Assembly: GCA_930989465.1 (NCBI GenBank)
Contig: CAKNLX010000007.1
Span: forward strand, 1 to 42,885
Length of the DNA stretch: 42,885 nt
Direction of reading: 5' to 3'
DNA from: an uncultured Lactobacillus sp.
GTDB lineage: Bacteria > Bacillota > Bacilli > Lactobacillales > Lactobacillaceae
The position numbers and the translations under genes are program-made. Positions 1,903 to 34,568 of this stretch are shown in pieces (positions within the stretch are counted from its first letter, which is position 1; the number at the start of each line of letters is the position of its first letter). The notes under the pieces were generated by a model that was not told the origin of the DNA, made no database searches, and was given only the letters and a program-made list of their open reading frames with translations.

Positions 1903-3495
1903 TTGAACATACTGACTAGAATAAAGAATTTCTTCAAGATAGGAGGTGCAAAGTTAGGTTTGACACAACAATTAGAAAAAGTAACGGATGATCCTAGAGT
2001 TGCTATTCCATCCAGTGAATATGAACGAATTAGAAAGGCTAAAGCTTATTATGCTAATGATTTAAAACGGGTGACTTTTAGGGACGCTAAAGGCAGAGCT
2101 TATAAACGGCAACTCAATTCATTGAATATCACTAAGATGGCATCAAGACGATTAGCCTCGATTATTTTTAATGAAGGCTGTGAAGTATCTGTTGATGATA
2201 AAAAAGCTGACAAGGTAGTTCAGCAAGTCTTACAAGCAAGTGATTTTAACGAGAACTATGAAACATTTCTTGAAAAGTGGATTGCTTTAGGCTCTGGCTG
2301 TATCCGTCCAACCATTAGCAATGGCAAGATCGTTCTTTCATGGGCTGTAGCGGATCAGGTGTATCCATTGAACGTTAATACAAGTGAAGTCAATGAAATT
2401 GCCATAGCATTCAAGTCTCAGCAGGTTGAAAACAGACAAACTGTGTATTATACATTGCTTGAATTCCATCAATGGGATCAAAACACGGGTGATTACACGA
2501 TTACCAATGAGCTTTATCGTTCAACTCAAAAAGATACCGTTGGTATTCAAGTATCATTAGATACCTTGGACGAGTATGCAAGCTTACAGCCATCAGTTAA
2601 GTTTCATAATATTACTAAGCCGTTGTTTGCTTTCTACAAGAATCCAGGTGCCAATAACATCAATTTAGATTCTCCATTAGGTTTAGGAATCGTAGACAAT
2701 GCCAAGACTACAGTTGATGCTATTAACCGTACTCATGATGAATTTGTTGAAGAAGTAATCAAAGGGCGGAGAAAGATTTTAGCACCTGATTACATGTTTC
2801 AAGGTGCATCTGAATCAAATGAGTTAAATCAATTTGCTAACAAGACGCATCCGCCATTGTTACCGGAAGATGAAACAGTATTCCAAATGTACTACGGTAG
2901 TAATAGCGATGAGGACAAGATTGTTGATTTAACAGTTCCTATTCGTGTTGATGATTACACCAAGGCAATGAATTTCTGGCTTGATGAATTTGAACGAGAA
3001 ACAGGTTTGTCACAAGGTACATTTACTTCAACGCCTCAAGGAATTCAGACGGCTACAGAAGTAGTATCAAACAATTCTACAACTTACCAAACTAGATCGT
3101 CTTATTTAACGATGGTTAGAAAGAATATCTATTCTTTGATTTATGCCATTTTAGAGTTAGCTCAGTATACTGACTTGCTTGATCCTGATTATCAATGGAC
3201 AGGGGATATTGATGCGGTTCAGCCAAACTTCAAGCCTAATGATGGTGTGTTTATCGATCAAGACAAGCAAAAGCAAGAAGATCTTCAAGCAGTTGCTGGA
3301 AATGCACTTCCAAAGAGAATCATGTGGATTCGTGATTATGGTATTGATGATGCTACTGCAGATGAATGGTGGAAGATGCTGCAGGAAGAAAGTGGCCAGC
3401 CTGATCCAGATGGTGAAATAGGTTTGTATGCATCTGGTGGTGATGATAACGATGACGAAGAAAACGACACTGAATCAGATGCTGAAGGAAGCTGA
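1903..3495 (+). CDS. phage portal protein (SPP1 gp6-like)
   Basis: A 530-aa portal that would form the dodecameric ring at the head vertex through which DNA enters and leaves. Recognised from position right after terL, length, and segments such as NITKMASRRLASIIFNEG, PLGLGIVDNAKTTVDAINRT and ERETGLSQGTF, typical of SPP1 gp6-like portals in Gram-positive siphophages. The last ~30 residues are a run of Asp/Glu. The TTG start has an AGGAGGTG ribosome site 7 bases upstream. Its 3' end overlaps the minor head gene. Confidence 0.9.
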   Translation: MNILTRIKNFFKIGGAKLGLTQQLEKVTDDPRVAIPSSEYERIRKAKAYYANDLKRVTFRDAKGRAYKRQLNSLNITKMASRRLASIIFNEGCEVSVDDKKADKVVQQVLQASDFNENYETFLEKWIALGSGCIRPTISNGKIVLSWAVADQVYPLNVNTSEVNEIAIAFKSQQVENRQTVYYTLLEFHQWDQNTGDYTITNELYRSTQKDTVGIQVSLDTLDEYASLQPSVKFHNITKPLFAFYKNPGANNINLDSPLGLGIVDNAKTTVDAINRTHDEFVEEVIKGRRKILAPDYMFQGASESNELNQFANKTHPPLLPEDETVFQMYYGSNSDEDKIVDLTVPIRVDDYTKAMNFWLDEFERETGLSQGTFTSTPQGIQTATEVVSNNSTTYQTRSSYLTMVRKNIYSLIYAILELAQYTDLLDPDYQWTGDIDAVQPNFKPNDGVFIDQDKQKQEDLQAVAGNALPKRIMWIRDYGIDDATADEWWKMLQEESGQPDPDGEIGLYASGGDDNDDEENDTESDAEGS

Positions 3496-27187: not shown

Positions 27188-27652
27188 ATGCAATTTTTAT
27201 ATTTATTTATTTCATTATTTGTAGTTTTAGCAGATCAAGGATTAAAAAATTATATTGTAAGCAATTATACCGTTGGTGAAGTTCATCAGATTATTCCGGG
27301 AATTTTATCATTTAATTATTTACAAAATGATGGTGCAGCTTGGAATATTTTAACTGGTCAAATGTGGCTATTTTACGCTATCAGCGTTATTGCCATTGCA
27401 GTTTGTTTATATTTTTTGTTCAATAAAAAGTATAAAAATGCATTGTTTGACGTGGGATTAGCCTTAGTATTAGGTGGTATTATCGGTAATTTCATTGATC
27501 GACTTCATTTAAAGTATGTAGTTGATATGCTTCAACTTGATTTCATTAATTTTAACATCTTTAATATTGCTGATTCTGCTATTACCACTGGTGTGCTCAT
27601 TATATTTATTTACTTAATTTTCTTTGCAGATAAGGATGATAAAAATGCCTAA
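27188..27652 (+). CDS. lspA: lipoprotein signal peptidase (signal peptidase II)
   Basis: 154 aa integral membrane aspartyl protease that cleaves lipoprotein signal peptides after lipid attachment, for instance that of the lipoprotein at 38,596-39,204. Four membrane helices. The catalytic Asp pair is D113 (RLHLKYVVDMLQ) and D129 (FNIFNIADSAI), and the GNFIDR motif is intact. The 8-base overlap with rluD repeats the common lspA-rluD pairing of Firmicutes. The ribosome site before the ATG is weak, so it is probably translated by coupling from fhs. Confidence 0.96.
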   Translation: MQFLYLFISLFVVLADQGLKNYIVSNYTVGEVHQIIPGILSFNYLQNDGAAWNILTGQMWLFYAISVIAIAVCLYFLFNKKYKNALFDVGLALVLGGIIGNFIDRLHLKYVVDMLQLDFINFNIFNIADSAITTGVLIIFIYLIFFADKDDKNA

Positions 27653-28556
27653 AAAATATTTATTACAAGTTAAAGATGAGCACGGACGTTTAGATAAATT
27701 TATCTCAGAGCAAGTACCTGATTTGTCTAGAACTAGAGTAAAAGAATTAGTTAAAGAAAAAGAAATCCTAGTTAATCAAAAAGCAGAGAAAGTATCTTAT
27801 AAAATTCAAGCAGGCGACAAAATTGAAATTAATGTTCCAGCGGTAAAACCATTGGATATTGTTCCAGAAAATATTCCACTTGATATTGTTTATGAAGATG
27901 ACGATGTAATTGTAGTAAATAAACCACAGGGCATGGTGGTGCATCCCGCACCAGGACATCCTGATCATACTTTGGTGAATGCACTTCTTTATCACACAAA
28001 AGATTTGGCACAATCTCCCGAAGGTTTTAGACCTGGGATTGTACATCGAATTGATAAGGATACTTCAGGTTTGTTGATGATTGCTAAGAATGCTCAAGCA
28101 AGAGAATCACTTGAAGATCAGTTAGCTCATAAGACAAACAAAAGAATATATTGGGCCATTGTTCATGGTAATTTTAGTGAAGAAAATGGTGTCATTGATG
28201 CTCCAATTGGCCGCAATCCATATGATCGCAAGAAGATGGCAGTGGTAGAAAATGGTAAAAAAGCTATTACACATTTTAAGGTACTCAAACAATTCAAAGG
28301 CTATAGTTTAATTCAATGTCAACTCGAGACAGGACGAACTCATCAAATCAGAGTACATTTAGATTATATTGGACATGCAGTTGCGGGAGATCCATTATAT
28401 GGTCCACGCAAAACTTTAAAAGGGAACGGCCAGTTTTTGCATGCTAAAGTTTTAGGCTTTAAGCATCCCCGGACAGGAGAATGGCTAGAATTCACTGTTG
28501 AACCACCTAAGATATTTCAGGATATGTTAGCCCAATTAGAAAAAGCAAGTGAATAA
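27645..28556 (+). CDS. rluD: 23S rRNA pseudouridine synthase RluD-like
   Basis: 303 aa. An S4 RNA-binding domain (residues ~12-70, GRLDKFISEQVPDLSRTRVK) precedes the RluA-type catalytic domain with D137 in GIVHRIDKDTSGLLMIAKN. In Bacillus the equivalent is YlyB, next to lspA. Substrate (23S rRNA helix 69 uridines) is inferred from the family. The ATG at 27645 has AAGGATGAT just upstream and is better than 27624. carA starts 2 bases after the stop. Confidence 0.93.
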   Translation: MPKKYLLQVKDEHGRLDKFISEQVPDLSRTRVKELVKEKEILVNQKAEKVSYKIQAGDKIEINVPAVKPLDIVPENIPLDIVYEDDDVIVVNKPQGMVVHPAPGHPDHTLVNALLYHTKDLAQSPEGFRPGIVHRIDKDTSGLLMIAKNAQARESLEDQLAHKTNKRIYWAIVHGNFSEENGVIDAPIGRNPYDRKKMAVVENGKKAITHFKVLKQFKGYSLIQCQLETGRTHQIRVHLDYIGHAVAGDPLYGPRKTLKGNGQFLHAKVLGFKHPRTGEWLEFTVEPPKIFQDMLAQLEKASE

Positions 28557-28558
28557 AA

Positions 28559-29614
28559 ATGAAACGTTATTTGATATTAGAAGATGGCAGCTCTTTTGCT
28601 GGTGAAGGTATTGGCGCAAGTATTATTTCCACCGGAGAATTAGCAATTCAAACTACTAATTTTGGCTATCAAGAAGCATTAACTGATCCTACTAATGCTG
28701 GAAAAATTCTAGTTTTTACATCGCCAATGATCGGCAATAATGGGATCAATGCAATTGACTATGAAAGTATTGATCCTACTGTTAAGGGAATAATTGCTAA
28801 TGATATTGCTTTGAATATTTCTGATAGTGAAAATTTTGAAGATCTTAGTTCGTTTTTAAAAGAAAAAAAGATACCTGCTATTTTTAAGGTAGACACCCGT
28901 GCGCTTGTTCATCGTTTGATGGAAGAAGGAACTATTAAGGCCTCAATCATGGATACTAATGATGAACACGCTTTTGATCAAATTAAAGCATTAGTTCTGC
29001 CTAAAAATAAATCGGCAATGGTTTCAACTAAAAATGCTTATGCATCCCCAAATGTAGGTAAAACAGTTGCAGTTTTAGATTTAGGATTAAAGCACTCTAT
29101 GCTCAGAGCCTTGTCTCTTAGAAAAGTAAACACAACCGTTTTACCTTATAATGTTAGTCCGCTGAATGTTGAGAACTTACGTCCTGAAGGAATCATTATT
29201 TCAAATGGACCAGGTAAGCCGGAGGAAATAGTTGATAAAATTGCTCCGATTTTAGATCATTTTTATGGCAAATATCCAATCTTAGGAATTGGATTAGGTT
29301 TCTTAGTGTTAAGTGATTATTTAGACTTTGAATTGGTTCAGTTGCCTCAGGAATTCAATGGAATTAATTATCCAGTAATTGAGCAAAATACTAATGCAAT
29401 TTGGCAGACTTCAATGAATATTGATCAATTAGTATTACCTGATAGCGTAAAAATGAATATGAATCGTGAATATTTTGATCTTCATAGTGAATTGAATGCA
29501 GGATTTTGGAATATCAAAGACAAGATAGTAGCAACCGCTTTTAATCCAGAGGGAGCTCCAGGATCCCACGATGCAGATGAAATTTTCGATTATTTTTTAC
29601 AAATGATGGAGTAA
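28559..29614 (+). CDS. carA: carbamoyl-phosphate synthase small subunit, glutaminase-dead by residues
   Basis: 351 aa, full length. The N-terminal CPSase_sm_chain domain (residues 1-130, LEDGSSFAGEGIG, FGYQEALTDPTNAG) and the class I amidotransferase domain (~165-350, SNGPGKPEE) are both present. Normally it hydrolyses glutamine and passes ammonia to CarB. Here the nucleophile motif GxCLGHQ reads GIGLGFL (Gly245 in place of Cys) and the HPE motif reads NPE (Asn329 in place of His; Glu331 kept). Residues around the glutamine pocket are also changed (EFNGINYP). So no glutaminase activity is expected. Reading frame is clean, so this is not ordinary decay. carB starts 3 bases later. Confidence 0.88.
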   Translation: MKRYLILEDGSSFAGEGIGASIISTGELAIQTTNFGYQEALTDPTNAGKILVFTSPMIGNNGINAIDYESIDPTVKGIIANDIALNISDSENFEDLSSFLKEKKIPAIFKVDTRALVHRLMEEGTIKASIMDTNDEHAFDQIKALVLPKNKSAMVSTKNAYASPNVGKTVAVLDLGLKHSMLRALSLRKVNTTVLPYNVSPLNVENLRPEGIIISNGPGKPEEIVDKIAPILDHFYGKYPILGIGLGFLVLSDYLDFELVQLPQEFNGINYPVIEQNTNAIWQTSMNIDQLVLPDSVKMNMNREYFDLHSELNAGFWNIKDKIVATAFNPEGAPGSHDADEIFDYFLQMME

Positions 29615-29617
29615 ATT

Positions 29618-32600
29618 ATGCCGTTAGAAAATGATTTAGATAAAGTATTAATTATCGGATCAGGTCCTACTTTGATTGGTAGCGTAGCTGAGATGGACTT
29701 AATGGCTACAGAAGCTATTGATGCCTTAACCGAAGAAGGAATACAAGTTATATTGGTTAATCCTAATCCAGCAACTATCTCCACGGATAAAAAGTCCAAT
29801 GTTACCGTATATCTAGAGCCGATGACATTAGATTTTCTTAAGCGAATTTTACGTATGGAAGAACCAGATGCGATTATTACTGCGTATGGTTCAACTAATG
29901 GATTAAAAGTTGCTCATAAATTATTGCAAGATGGAATTTTAGAGCAAATGGGCATTCAGTTGCTAACTTTGAATTCTCGTCTCTTGCAGATGGGTAATCA
30001 GCAAAAAAGAACAGAGCTTTTAAATAAATTAGGAATTGATACTAGTGAGTCTTGGGAATTAAATCAAAATGCTCAAGACAATATGAATGGTGCTATGGAT
30101 AATTTACTTTCCAAAGTTACTTTTCCAGTATTAGTTACTAAGTATAATCGTTATGTTCATAATGAACATTTACGATTTAAGACTAAAGAAGCTTTAGTGA
30201 CCTATTTTAAAGAAGAAAGACAAACTGATAATTTTACATGGAAAAATTATCGATTAACGGAGGATCTTTCAGCTTGGGAAGAAGTTATTGTTGATGTAAT
30301 ACGTGATAAGGATGGCAATTTAGTATTTACTAACTTTGCTGGTTCGATAGAGCCAGTGGGAATAAATTCTGGTGATTCAGCTATAGTAATGCCGTCTTTA
30401 ACTTTAAATAATGATCATATTCAAGAATTGAGAGAATCAGTTAGACGAATTGTAGATAATTTGGAAATTGTTGGTTTTACTAGTTTTCATTTTGCTATTA
30501 AACATCATGGCACCCAAATTAAGTCAAAATTATTGACGATCCGTCCTCGTTTAACTCGTAGTTCTGTTTGGGCTCAACGAATTGGCATGTATGATGTGGG
30601 TTATGTAGTAAGTAAAGTAGCTATTGGCTATCGACTAAATGAAATAACCGATCCATTATCAGGATTAAATGCTTCTATTGAACCTACTTTAGATGCAATA
30701 GCGATTAAAATACCTTATTGGTCATTTACTGGTTCAGGTTATAACCATTATCAGTTGAATAATCGAATGCAAGCCAGTGGCGAAGCAATGGGCGTAGGAC
30801 GTAATTTTGAAACAGCGTTTTTGAAAGGTTTAGATGCAACTACTAATCTTGACTTGGGCTGGGCTGCTTTTGTAGAAGAGAGTCGGAAAACATATGAAGA
30901 AATAATTGAAGATCTTAAGCATCCCGATGAATTACATCTAATTAAATTACTAGCAGCTATTAAAGAAAATATTCCTTTTAGTGAATTACAAGAAATTACA
31001 GGCCTTCATCCAATTTATTATCAAAAGCTTCTTCATATTGTCACAATCATTAATAAACTAGTGCAAAATAAGGAGCATTTAACTTTAGATTTAGTAAGAG
31101 AAGCTAAAGATTACGGCTTTTTTAATCCATTACTTGCTAAGGTATTAAATATTTCTGTAGAGGAAGTACGATCATTAATTAGTAAATATAATTTAGAACC
31201 ATCATTTTTAAAGATAGACGGTTCGGCTGGAGTTTATCGGCCTAATGTGTGTGCTTACTATGGCGCATATGATGTTCAAAATGAAGCTAAAGATTTAGCG
31301 GCAGATAAAAAGATATTAATTTTAGGTATGTTGCCTTTACAAGTATCTGTGACTAGTGAATTTGACTATATGATTGCTCATGCAGCAAAGACTTTACATA
31401 ATAATGGCTATGTTACAGTTTTGCTTTCAAATAATGATGAATCTGTTTCTTCTAGATATAAGGATATCGATCGAGTATATTTTGAATCAATTACATTAGA
31501 AAATATTTTAACTATTGCTAAAAGAGAAAATATTAAAGATGTACTTTTACAATTTTCAGGTAAAAGAGTAAGTGCATTAAGTAAGCAATTGGAAGAAAAT
31601 GGTCTTCATATAATAGGTCAATGGGAGACTAAAGATCCTCGTGATATGATTACGGAATTATTAAATCATCCCCTGACCGATTTAAAACGAGTACCATCTC
31701 TGAAAACTACAAATCCTAATGCTGTATTTGAATTTGTTGATCAATATGATTTTCCAATTTTAATTGGGGGCATGAATAAAGAGAATAAATTAAAATCCGC
31801 TGTAGTTTATGATATTCCAGCAATTAAAAGATATTTAGCTGAAAATCAGGTAGATCAAATCACCGTGTCTCAGTTTATTGAAGGGAATAAGTATGAAGTA
31901 ACAGCTATTTCGGATGGTAAGAATGTCACTTTACCTGGTATTATTGAACATTTAGAGCAAACAGGTTCACATGCATCAGATTCAATAGCGGTTATTAAAC
32001 CTCAAAATTTATCATTAGAACAACAAAAAAAGATTGAACAACAATCGATTAAATTGATAAAAGTATTACAAACAAGAGGAATCTTTAACTTACATTATTT
32101 GTTGGTAAATGATGAATTATATTTATTACAAATTAAGCCATATGCAGGTCATAACGTAGCGTTTTTGTCTAAGTCTTTGAATAAAGATATTACTGCCTGC
32201 GCTACGGAAGTCTTGATAGGTCATAACCTTCAAGATTTGGGCTATCCCAATGGACTATGGCATACAAGTAACTTTATTCATATTAAAATGCCAGTATTTT
32301 CTTTCCTTAATTATAGTAGTGGCAATACATTTGATTCTAATATGAAATCATCTGGTTCAGTAATGGGGCGAGATACTCATTTAGCTAAGGCATTATACAA
32401 AGGATACGAAGCTAGTGATTTACACATCCCTAGTTATGGGACAATTTTTATTTCAGTTAGAGATGAAGATAAAAATCGAGTGACAGAATTGGCTCGTCGA
32501 TTTGATAGATTGGGCTTTAAGTTAATTGCAACCGAAGGAACTGCGAATATGTTTGCGGAAGCTGGGATTACTACAGGAGTTGTAGAAAAAGTCCATAATA

Positions 32601-32809
32601 ATCCTCGCAATTTACTAGAAAAAATCCGACAACATAAAATTGTAATGGTAGTAAATATTACTAATCTTTCTGATGCGGCTAGTGAAGATGCATTACGAAT
32701 AAGAGATGAGGCTTTGTATACTCATATTCCGGTATTTTCAAGTATTGAAACCGCTGAATTAATTTTAGATGTATTAGAATCACTAGCGTTAACTACACAA
32801 CCAATTTAA
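29618..32809 (+). CDS. carB: carbamoyl-phosphate synthase large subunit, ATP-grasp sites degenerate
   Basis: 1063 aa, normal length and domain order: ATP-grasp half 1 (~1-400), oligomerisation domain (~400-545), ATP-grasp half 2 (~550-930), MGS-like allosteric domain (~935-1063, TEGTANMFAEAGI kept). The catalytic parts are worn away. The loop RPSFTMGGSGGG is replaced by TKYNRYVHNEH (~174-184). The metal motif E-x-N-x-R is replaced by TIRPR (307-311). GGQTALN is replaced by GSTNGLK. In half 2 RPSYVLGGRAM is replaced by GGMNKENK (from 717), and E-V-N-P-R by QIKPY (838-842). The H in GSHASDS is kept. Synthesis of carbamoyl phosphate looks impossible; a sensory or structural role is open. Confidence 0.88.
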   Translation: MPLENDLDKVLIIGSGPTLIGSVAEMDLMATEAIDALTEEGIQVILVNPNPATISTDKKSNVTVYLEPMTLDFLKRILRMEEPDAIITAYGSTNGLKVAHKLLQDGILEQMGIQLLTLNSRLLQMGNQQKRTELLNKLGIDTSESWELNQNAQDNMNGAMDNLLSKVTFPVLVTKYNRYVHNEHLRFKTKEALVTYFKEERQTDNFTWKNYRLTEDLSAWEEVIVDVIRDKDGNLVFTNFAGSIEPVGINSGDSAIVMPSLTLNNDHIQELRESVRRIVDNLEIVGFTSFHFAIKHHGTQIKSKLLTIRPRLTRSSVWAQRIGMYDVGYVVSKVAIGYRLNEITDPLSGLNASIEPTLDAIAIKIPYWSFTGSGYNHYQLNNRMQASGEAMGVGRNFETAFLKGLDATTNLDLGWAAFVEESRKTYEEIIEDLKHPDELHLIKLLAAIKENIPFSELQEITGLHPIYYQKLLHIVTIINKLVQNKEHLTLDLVREAKDYGFFNPLLAKVLNISVEEVRSLISKYNLEPSFLKIDGSAGVYRPNVCAYYGAYDVQNEAKDLAADKKILILGMLPLQVSVTSEFDYMIAHAAKTLHNNGYVTVLLSNNDESVSSRYKDIDRVYFESITLENILTIAKRENIKDVLLQFSGKRVSALSKQLEENGLHIIGQWETKDPRDMITELLNHPLTDLKRVPSLKTTNPNAVFEFVDQYDFPILIGGMNKENKLKSAVVYDIPAIKRYLAENQVDQITVSQFIEGNKYEVTAISDGKNVTLPGIIEHLEQTGSHASDSIAVIKPQNLSLEQQKKIEQQSIKLIKVLQTRGIFNLHYLLVNDELYLLQIKPYAGHNVAFLSKSLNKDITACATEVLIGHNLQDLGYPNGLWHTSNFIHIKMPVFSFLNYSSGNTFDSNMKSSGSVMGRDTHLAKALYKGYEASDLHIPSYGTIFISVRDEDKNRVTELARRFDRLGFKLIATEGTANMFAEAGITTGVVEKVHNNPRNLLEKIRQHKIVMVVNITNLSDAASEDALRIRDEALYTHIPVFSSIETAELILDVLESLALTTQPI

Positions 32810-32849: not shown

Positions 32850-32882
32850 AATAAGCATGTTTAAGAGGCATGCTTATTTTTT
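32850..32882 (+). terminator. carB operon terminator
   Basis: Perfect 10-bp stem AATAAGCATG (32850-32859) with CATGCTTATT (32869-32878), then TTTT. It ends the fhs-carB operon and extends into the last codons of convergent rqcH. Confidence 0.8.
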
Positions 32883-34568
32883 ATTGACTTTCATTGCCAT
32901 AATTTCTTTCTCTACTGGAGTGACTTCAATAGAGTTTTGACCAGTATAAATTACAAATCCGGGTTTAGCACCATTAGGCTTTTTAACACGTTTGTCTTGT
33001 ACATAATCTACTTGAACATGGGCAGAGTCTTTGCCCTTAGAAAAGAATGCTGCGATTTCAGCTGCTTCTTTAATATCGTCTTCAGATGGTTGATCATCTC
33101 GTAAAATCACGTGAGATCCTGGCATATTTTTAACATGGAACCAGTAATCAGATTTGTTAGCCTTTTTTAAAGTTAACCAATCATTTTGATAATTGTTTTT
33201 ACCAACTAAAACATGTTTACCAGAAGAAAGTTTAAATTCATTCAGATTACGTTCTGTAATTTTATTTTTTCGTTTATTCTTCTTTTGTTTTCGAATATAT
33301 CCTTGATTGATTAACTCATCATTAATTTGATCAATATCCTGCGGATCCGCATTATCGATAGCAGTTTGAATAGAATCAAAATAGCGCAAATTTTCTTCGG
33401 CTATTTTGATTTGCTGATTAACATGTTTAATGGAATCGCGCAATTTTTTATATCGAGTAAAATATTTTTGAGCATTGCGTGCTGGTGAAAGGGCAGGGTC
33501 TAATTTTATTGCAATAGGTGCATTGTTTTCATAGTAGTTAGGCAGGGAAACTGTAGTCATTCCTGGCTTCACTTGATTTAAATTTGCGTTTAAAATTTCA
33601 CCCTTAATACGATATCCTTCTGAGTTTTCAGCAAGATTGAGTTGTTTCTTTAATTTCTTGATTTTCTTGCTTAGCTTTTTTTGCTCATTCTTAACCACGC
33701 GTTCTACTTGACTAGCGCGTTGTTTTACCCAATCACGATTAGCTTGATATTCATAAAATTCATCAAGTCCTTTGTTAAGGTCAGGATTAGAGCTTTCCTT
33801 TTCAAGATCTAGATGATAAGGCAAATAACAAAAGATTTTTCTCTTATTATTAGGAGTCTTTAAAACAAATGCGCGTGGATTGTCGAACTGATTGAAAAAC
33901 GTTTTAAAGGAAGAATAGCTGTATTCATCTTCTAAGTACCCCAATAGTTCACTTCGATCATCTTTATCTAAACCATCCATTTGCTTAGCTAAACTTTTAG
34001 CATCATTTTCATTGCTAAAGTGCTTAAATTCAGTTTCAGACAAAGTTAATCCATTTATTCCTGGCTTCAATGGAGGTAACTTATATTTTGCTTTTGGTAA
34101 TAAAATACGAGCTCTATTTTCATCAGGATTAATTCTCTTTAATAAGTCGATGATATGATTATCTTTTTGATTGTAGAGAATCACGTTACTGTGACGACCC
34201 ATTAATTCTACGGAAAGAACTAATTCGATTTCATCACCCAATTCATTGCGATTACTAAAATGGAAATTAGTAATTCGATCTAAACCTACTTGATCAATAG
34301 ATTGTAAAACAGAGCCCTCTAAGTATTTACGTAATACCATTACAAAAATAGGAGCTTTATCAGGGTTGTTAATTGTTTGTCCAGTTAAATACATCCTTGG
34401 ATATTGTGCATTAGCTGAAATTAAAAATTGGTAGTTTTTTCGATTTTTTCTAAAGATTAAAACTAAGTCTTGATCAAAGGGTTGGTAAATTTTTGATAAA
34501 CGACTTCCTACTAGAGTAGGGGTTAAATCTTGTAATAAACTATGGATAAATAATCCATCAAATGCCAT
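32874..34568 (-). CDS. rqcH: RqcH ribosome rescue factor (NFACT / FbpA)
   Basis: 564 aa. In Bacillus, RqcH binds stalled 50S subunits and adds C-terminal alanine tails that mark broken proteins for ClpXP; it is also known as fibronectin-binding protein FbpA. NFACT-N covers residues 1-~265 with the essential D97-R98 pair in QVGLDRITNF. A coiled-coil arm follows (~270-430, NEQKKLSKKIKKLKKQLN). The NFACT-R domain (~440-545) has SGKHVLVGKNNYQNDWLTL and the GSHVIL segment. No signal peptide. Start ATG with GAGGTGATG upstream. It converges on carB and diverges from the MarR-like gene. Confidence 0.95.
   Translation of the reverse strand: MAFDGLFIHSLLQDLTPTLVGSRLSKIYQPFDQDLVLIFRKNRKNYQFLISANAQYPRMYLTGQTINNPDKAPIFVMVLRKYLEGSVLQSIDQVGLDRITNFHFSNRNELGDEIELVLSVELMGRHSNVILYNQKDNHIIDLLKRINPDENRARILLPKAKYKLPPLKPGINGLTLSETEFKHFSNENDAKSLAKQMDGLDKDDRSELLGYLEDEYSYSSFKTFFNQFDNPRAFVLKTPNNKRKIFCYLPYHLDLEKESSNPDLNKGLDEFYEYQANRDWVKQRASQVERVVKNEQKKLSKKIKKLKKQLNLAENSEGYRIKGEILNANLNQVKPGMTTVSLPNYYENNAPIAIKLDPALSPARNAQKYFTRYKKLRDSIKHVNQQIKIAEENLRYFDSIQTAIDNADPQDIDQINDELINQGYIRKQKKNKRKNKITERNLNEFKLSSGKHVLVGKNNYQNDWLTLKKANKSDYWFHVKNMPGSHVILRDDQPSEDDIKEAAEIAAFFSKGKDSAHVQVDYVQDKRVKKPNGAKPGFVIYTGQNSIEVTPVEKEIMAMKVNKK

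Follow-up and report, generated by a model that had tools for sequence, protein, structure and literature searches.

Among the closest described systems, the carbamoyl phosphate synthetase (CPSase; EC 6.3.5.5) of E. coli, CarAB or PyrAaAb, is encoded by two adjacent genes, and its large subunit, for which a structure is available (1bxr), ends in an MGS-like allosteric domain. In carbamoyl-phosphate synthase I of urea-cycle animals, the glutaminase cysteine has been lost, both ATP sites are kept and the enzyme is active. Degenerate CarAB pairs also occur in other Lactobacillaceae, of which pyrAa2/pyrAb2 beside pyrR2 in L. plantarum is presumably an example. Searching the open-licence literature by title and abstract, we found no description of a dead CPSase pair; the sequence-only reading of this DNA knew of no precedent. 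The portions available of PMC5453994, PMC5712122, PMC5918772, PMC9963975, PMC6854853 and PMC10609543 likewise make no mention of one. A carbamoyl phosphate synthetase gene lies near the terminus in several Lactobacillus genomes, its activity passing without comment in the accessible part of the paper (PMC6099100), and a table in another partly available paper lists pyrR1 and pyrR2 separately (PMC7911632).

The pair described here, which we denote carA' and carB', lies in a window of 42,885 nucleotides from an uncultured Lactobacillus sp., the whole stretch of DNA that was analysed, corresponding to contig C7 of assembly G000 (57.6% complete). Its CarB' is 99.9% identical to that of Lactobacillus gallinarum DSM 10532, and a canonical CarB with 32% identity to CarB' is present on contig C4 of the same assembly. 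The assembly also holds two PyrR copies, 94% alike and on separate contigs (C4:35475-36056; C37:198-776), which suggests that it is of mixed strains. For comparison, we assembled 70 intact Lactobacillus CarA'/CarB' pairs, the window's included, from the 74 genomes with a CarB' by setting aside G032, G016, G040 and G062, in which a gene was cut or split as fetched; ten named loci were excluded from this set as duplicates. The genes of the locus are as follows, the names lspA, rluD and rqcH/fbpA being assigned tentatively from their context.

27188..27652, plus strand: lspA, upstream neighbour, kept in 70/70 loci
27624..28556, plus strand: rluD-type pseudouridine synthase gene adjoining carA', start codon uncertain, 70/70 loci
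28559..29614, plus strand: carA', pseudo small subunit of 351 aa (ORF list, profile search, alignment)
29618..32809, plus strand: carB', pseudo large subunit of 1063 aa in an open frame (ORF list, profiles, solved-structure match, alignment)
32874..34568, minus strand: rqcH/fbpA-type gene, downstream and convergent, found in 61/70 loci as fetched

The carA' gene stands directly upstream of carB', and the gap between rluD and carA' has a median of 3 nt over the 70 loci. An RNase P class B RNA was seen upstream of the pair at 2635-3004 of stretch L001, as well as on stretches L176, L180 and L181, and at one locus a membrane-like ORF of 619 aa (L086, 5968-7827) sits between rluD and carA'.

CarA' and CarB' are homologous to CPSase across all domains of both subunits, and CarB' aligns with CarB along its full length, E. 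coli CarB being its closest solved relative. General profiles disagree on its status: CarB' exceeds the cut-off of PRK05294 (NF003671; 690 against 599 bits, 6e-207) and falls under that of TIGR01369 (665 against 1027 bits). Its mean identity to canonical CarB is 0.30, and to E. coli CarB it averages 27%, compared with 50% for canonical Lactobacillus CarB. The pair resembles E. coli CarAB in the adjacency of its genes and in retaining every large-subunit domain including MGS, and differs from it in the replacement of the glutaminase Cys and His and of the metal ligands in both ATP-grasp sites. With carbamoyl-phosphate synthase I, which we take 5dot, among the solved relatives of CarB', to represent, it shares the loss of the cysteine, but in CarB' the ATP sites are lost too. 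The positions that matter are listed here; the roles given to the catalytic, ATP-site and effector residues are those assigned in the published structures of E. coli CarA and CarB.

29291..29293, plus strand: CarA' Gly245, aligned with Cys269, the glutaminase nucleophile; all 70 copies have Gly
29543..29545, plus strand: CarA' Asn329, aligned with the catalytic His353; all 70 copies have Asn
30137..30139, plus strand: CarB' Thr174, at the Arg169 position (alignment to E. coli, codons checked)
30536..30550, plus strand: CarB' TIRPR 307-311, in place of the ATP-grasp 1 metal motif (alignment, codons checked)
31889..31891, plus strand: CarB' Lys758, at the Glu761 position; Lys in 70/70
32129..32143, plus strand: CarB' QIKPY 838-842, in place of the ATP-grasp 2 metal motif; Gln and Lys in 70/70
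32423..32806, plus strand: MGS-like allosteric domain, residues 936-1063 of CarB' (Pfam MGS 3.3e-19, effector residues kept)

First, the losses extend over the whole pair. The Cys-His pair of the EC 6.3.5.5 glutaminase is absent from CarA' in every one of the 70, and His272-Gln273 is replaced by Phe-Leu just as uniformly. In the second half of the window's CarB', E841, N843 and R845 of E. coli have become Q838, K840 and Y842; over the 70 copies, the Gln and the Lys are invariant, R845 is Tyr (68) or Phe (2), E761 is always Lys, D753 is always Ser, and Q829 is His (68) or Asn (2). The first half is eroded in a less uniform manner: E299 and N301, which are T307 and R309 in the window, have been exchanged mostly for Ser (34) or Thr (25), with a single Asp, and for Lys (56) or Arg (10), with Asn kept once, while Q285 has given way to His (69) or Arg (1), the Gly-rich loop is no longer present and its sequence varies, and of the ATP-site residues two are left, E215 (68/70) and R303 (69/70). 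CarB' therefore lacks the metal ligands that EC 6.3.5.5 calls for in both ATP-grasp sites. By comparison, all of the 30 canonical Lactobacillus pairs used (from 51, alongside E. coli) retain the catalytic residues scored. Since the losses in CarA' and in the second half are common to 70/70 pairs, they are not an artefact of one genome. These alignments bear out the earlier description of a whole pseudo-CPSase pair with its E-x-N-x-R motifs replaced, an Arg169-type position occupied by Thr174 and 1063 codons open; the further claim that Gly717 stands at the R715-type position holds in so far as the arginine is absent, and whether Gly717 or a small deletion takes its place depends on the alignment, two of which differ. 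Loss at catalytic residues was not enriched over that at other conserved residues of the same domain, whether in ATP-grasp 1 (P = 0.68), ATP-grasp 2 (P = 0.66) or the GATase domain (P = 0.39).

Second, the pair is under strong constraint. Over genome pairs with usable dS, which are not independent of each other, carA' and carB' have median dN/dS values of 0.036 and 0.056 (29 pairs each), similar values being found for the neighbours rluD (0.053, 29 pairs), lspA (0.059, 28 pairs) and rqcH (0.042, 27 pairs). At 56 columns of CarB and 19 of CarA, the 30 canonical copies all share one letter and the 70 pseudo copies all share another. Catalytic residues lost under purifying selection, the combination that defines a pseudoenzyme, are thus both found in CarA'/CarB'. 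A mean identity of 0.30 to canonical CarB and the split frame of one copy might be taken as signs of a decaying relic, but the dN/dS of about 0.05 and the fixed replacement residues argue against decay; the companion idea, that the CPSase is still active by way of unusual residues, conflicts with known CPSase chemistry given that both metal sites, the Cys and the His are gone, and we regard either version as scarcely credible. The split copy itself (G016, L109 1263-4447) is read in frames of 966 and 99 aa, through a frameshift or an assembly error in a draft genome.

Constraint is unevenly spread over CarB'. Mean pairwise identity is 0.71 in the MGS domain (canonical 0.81), and is loose in ATP-grasp 1 (0.54, canonical 0.93) and in the oligomerisation domain (0.45, canonical 0.78). 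ATP-grasp 2 holds 64 columns invariant among the 70 copies, 33 of which differ from the canonical majority. One could suppose from these columns that the protein is a repurposed enzyme which carries out a different reaction with its new invariant ATP-grasp 2 residues; however, the metal ligands have become Gln and Lys in 70/70, we know of no metal-free ATP-grasp chemistry, and we consider this reading unlikely. The MGS domain was said beforehand to be well kept, and it is: besides the Pfam match, the six effector positions K954, T974, T977, K993, N1015 and D1025 are identical in 70/70 CarB', so that the protein has both the fold profile and the nucleotide-contact residues of an MGS-like domain, the roles of these residues being taken from E. 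coli CarB. They are kept above the background of the domain only at p = 0.023 (6/6 against 13/22).

Third, this condition of the pair holds throughout the genus, with related forms across Lactobacillaceae, which goes beyond what had been noticed in the window. A survey with TIGR01369 found the divergent CarB' in 74/75 Lactobacillus genomes, whole or nearly so in 72 and partial in two; the sole genome without a match, G046, is 59% complete. Canonical CarB exceeds the cut-off in 51 genomes, in all of which the two kinds occur together, as would suit a regulatory subunit of canonical CarAB acting in mixed or decoy complexes. In the remaining 24 genomes, canonical CarB does not exceed the cut-off, and the 15 of these that are at least 90% complete all keep CarB', with a split CarB' frame in one (G016) and a broken canonical copy in another (G056); such a role is very improbable, and as the sole function of the pair it is largely refuted. 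In G008, canonical PyrB and CarB are fragments and CarA'B' is intact. Matches to PyrR (63/75) and PyrB (54/75) at E <= 1e-25, and to the uracil permease (45/75) at E <= 1e-60, are similarly incomplete in their distribution. PyrR, PyrB and canonical CarB are all unmatched in seven genomes at least 90% complete (G022, G036, G038, G039, G044, G045 and G074), and G038, G039, G044 and G074, the last two being single contigs, have no uracil permease match at that threshold either, yet CarB' is kept. The persistence of CarA'B' where these matches are lacking indicates that in Lactobacillus the pair is independent of pyrimidine synthesis, of PyrR and of the canonical enzyme.

Beyond the genus, a CarA' profile search of 397 family genomes found three genomes outside Lactobacillus, from two other genera, whose pairs show the same kind of losses at 44-49% CarB identity. 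More distant degenerate forms are common: of 61 genomes sampled from the family, 43 carry a CarB-like match below the cut-off, full-length in nine and short in 34. The 20 short-type loci fetched from the 34 encode CarB proteins cut down to about 840 aa (818-901 aa) that have lost the ATP-grasp 2 lid and the MGS domain. E299 is matched in these proteins by Lys (17) or Arg (3), and Gly occupies the nucleophile position of CarA in 20/20. A further seven full-length loci are of intermediate type; G107 and G084 exceed the cut-off and the other five do not, and the nucleophile Cys has become Gly in six and is kept in G107. Two stretches of genus g22 (L192, L193) show an intact-looking ATP-grasp 1, a dead second half and a CarA without the Cys, and their CarB is possibly a candidate bicarbonate-dependent half-enzyme, judging from its residues. 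At one locus (L121, 2173-3969), a membrane-like ORF of 598 aa lies between degenerate carB and rqcH. Among 98 genomes sampled across the order, of which 85 belong to other families, no TIGR01369 match of 300-1027 bits fell outside Lactobacillaceae. Proteins of about 583 aa in genus g43 of family f4 (e.g., G464, G449) score 278-293 bits over TIGR01369 positions 57-480 only and are possibly another cut-down CarB relative.

The degenerate pairs share one site. The rluD gene lies upstream at 20/20 short-type, 6/7 intermediate (the seventh being cut by the contig) and 2/2 near-relative loci, and rqcH downstream at 11/20, 7/7 and 2/2. PyrB is found at 0/29 of these loci, UraA at none of the short-type, six of the intermediate and two of the near-relative ones, and PyrR at 17/20, 5/7 and 1/2, respectively. 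Of the 16 intact-CarAB loci fetched, seven (L138-L141, L198, L200 and L202) carry PyrR, UraA, PyrB and PyrC at this site, and the intact pyr operon of Lactobacillus lies away from the CarA'B' site. In the Lactobacillus loci, the unbroken presence of lspA-rluD upstream and the frequent presence of rqcH downstream could suggest that the pair works with RluD or RqcH, in keeping with the RNA/ribosome link that the sequence-only reading had proposed. But in other genera these genes also border complete pyr operons whose CarAB is intact, rluD being upstream at 7/7 of them, so that the adjacency is an inherited position of the pyr operon, and a ribosome link is quite improbable. In the CarA tree, the Lactobacillus-type degenerate copies group in a single clade (100/100), whose placement with the intact copies of the same site, and not with the canonical Lactobacillus copies, is moderately supported; the short type separates from the full-length type, although a single clade is not rejected (AU p = 0.196). 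A quick tree of the CarB N-terminal half sets every intact copy on one side (SH-aLRT 99); long branches play into these comparisons. The likely order would be that an intact pyr operon lost pyrB and pyrC as its CarAB died, and that uraA and pyrR then left the site in Lactobacillus. The other degenerate CarAB pairs thus resemble CarA'B' in their site after rluD and in the CarA Cys to Gly exchange, and the short type differs in having pyrR beside it at most loci and in the domains that it has lost.

Considering this frequent company of PyrR, a dead CPSase could act as a PyrR partner that senses inorganic carbon or UMP and modulates PyrR attenuation of pyrimidine genes. Upstream of the pair, L120, L121 and L197 have PyrR attenuators (RF00515), with matches below threshold in L190 and L170, and the L. 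plantarum PyrR2 is cited as an inorganic-carbon regulator in the accessible part of one paper (PMC3582564). Against this, PyrR is not at the Lactobacillus locus, and the seven nearly complete genomes without a PyrR match keep the pair. No RF00515 reaches the gathering score in L001, an absence that weighs little, as none was found in the canonical-operon stretch L209 either. On balance, we think a PyrR partner rather unlikely.

The reading that we prefer, and which in our judgement stands about evenly between right and wrong, is that CarA'-CarB' is a non-catalytic, sensor-like descendant of the resident pyr-operon CPSase, kept by selection for another job. The case for such a sensor is built on the shared losses, the intact pairing, the purifying selection and the persistence without pyrimidine-pathway genes, and a dead pair with a kept effector domain makes nucleotide sensing plausible. 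CarAB would have stayed in place after pyrR, uraA, pyrB and pyrC left the site, and CarA' and CarB' would still form a CPSase-like complex. Its MGS domain may still bind a nucleotide effector of the UMP/IMP type, and ATP-grasp 2, with Gln and Lys where Mg2+ sat, may hold an anionic ligand with no metal present, and the ligand state would be relayed to a partner. Metal-free binding is suggested by a basic residue that occupies the place of a metal ligand, in each half of the Lactobacillus protein and, in the short type, in the first, as though it substituted for Mg2+. Since the short type is without MGS, sensing through MGS cannot account for the wider family as a whole, in which either the function has diverged or a shared one would lie in CarA and the first half. 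Somewhat more tentatively, and a little short of an even chance, the pair might be a pure sensor, in which anions are bound without metal, MGS reads UMP or IMP, and a process is controlled that outlasts the loss of pyrimidine synthesis, PyrR and the permease, with complementarily degenerated dead CPSases serving across Lactobacillaceae.

A pair that is nearly universal in Lactobacillus and enzyme-like by general profiles such as NF003671 is almost certainly not that enzyme. Metabolic models in which it passes for CarAB would attribute pyrimidine or arginine synthesis to species that have lost it. The pair may also bear on the CO2 dependence reported for lactobacilli, L. johnsonii requiring CO2 according to the portion available of the source (PMC3582564). 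Finally, the site preserves a series that begins with an intact pyr operon and leads to degenerate CPSases of several kinds, and thereby a record of how a multi-site enzyme becomes a non-enzyme.
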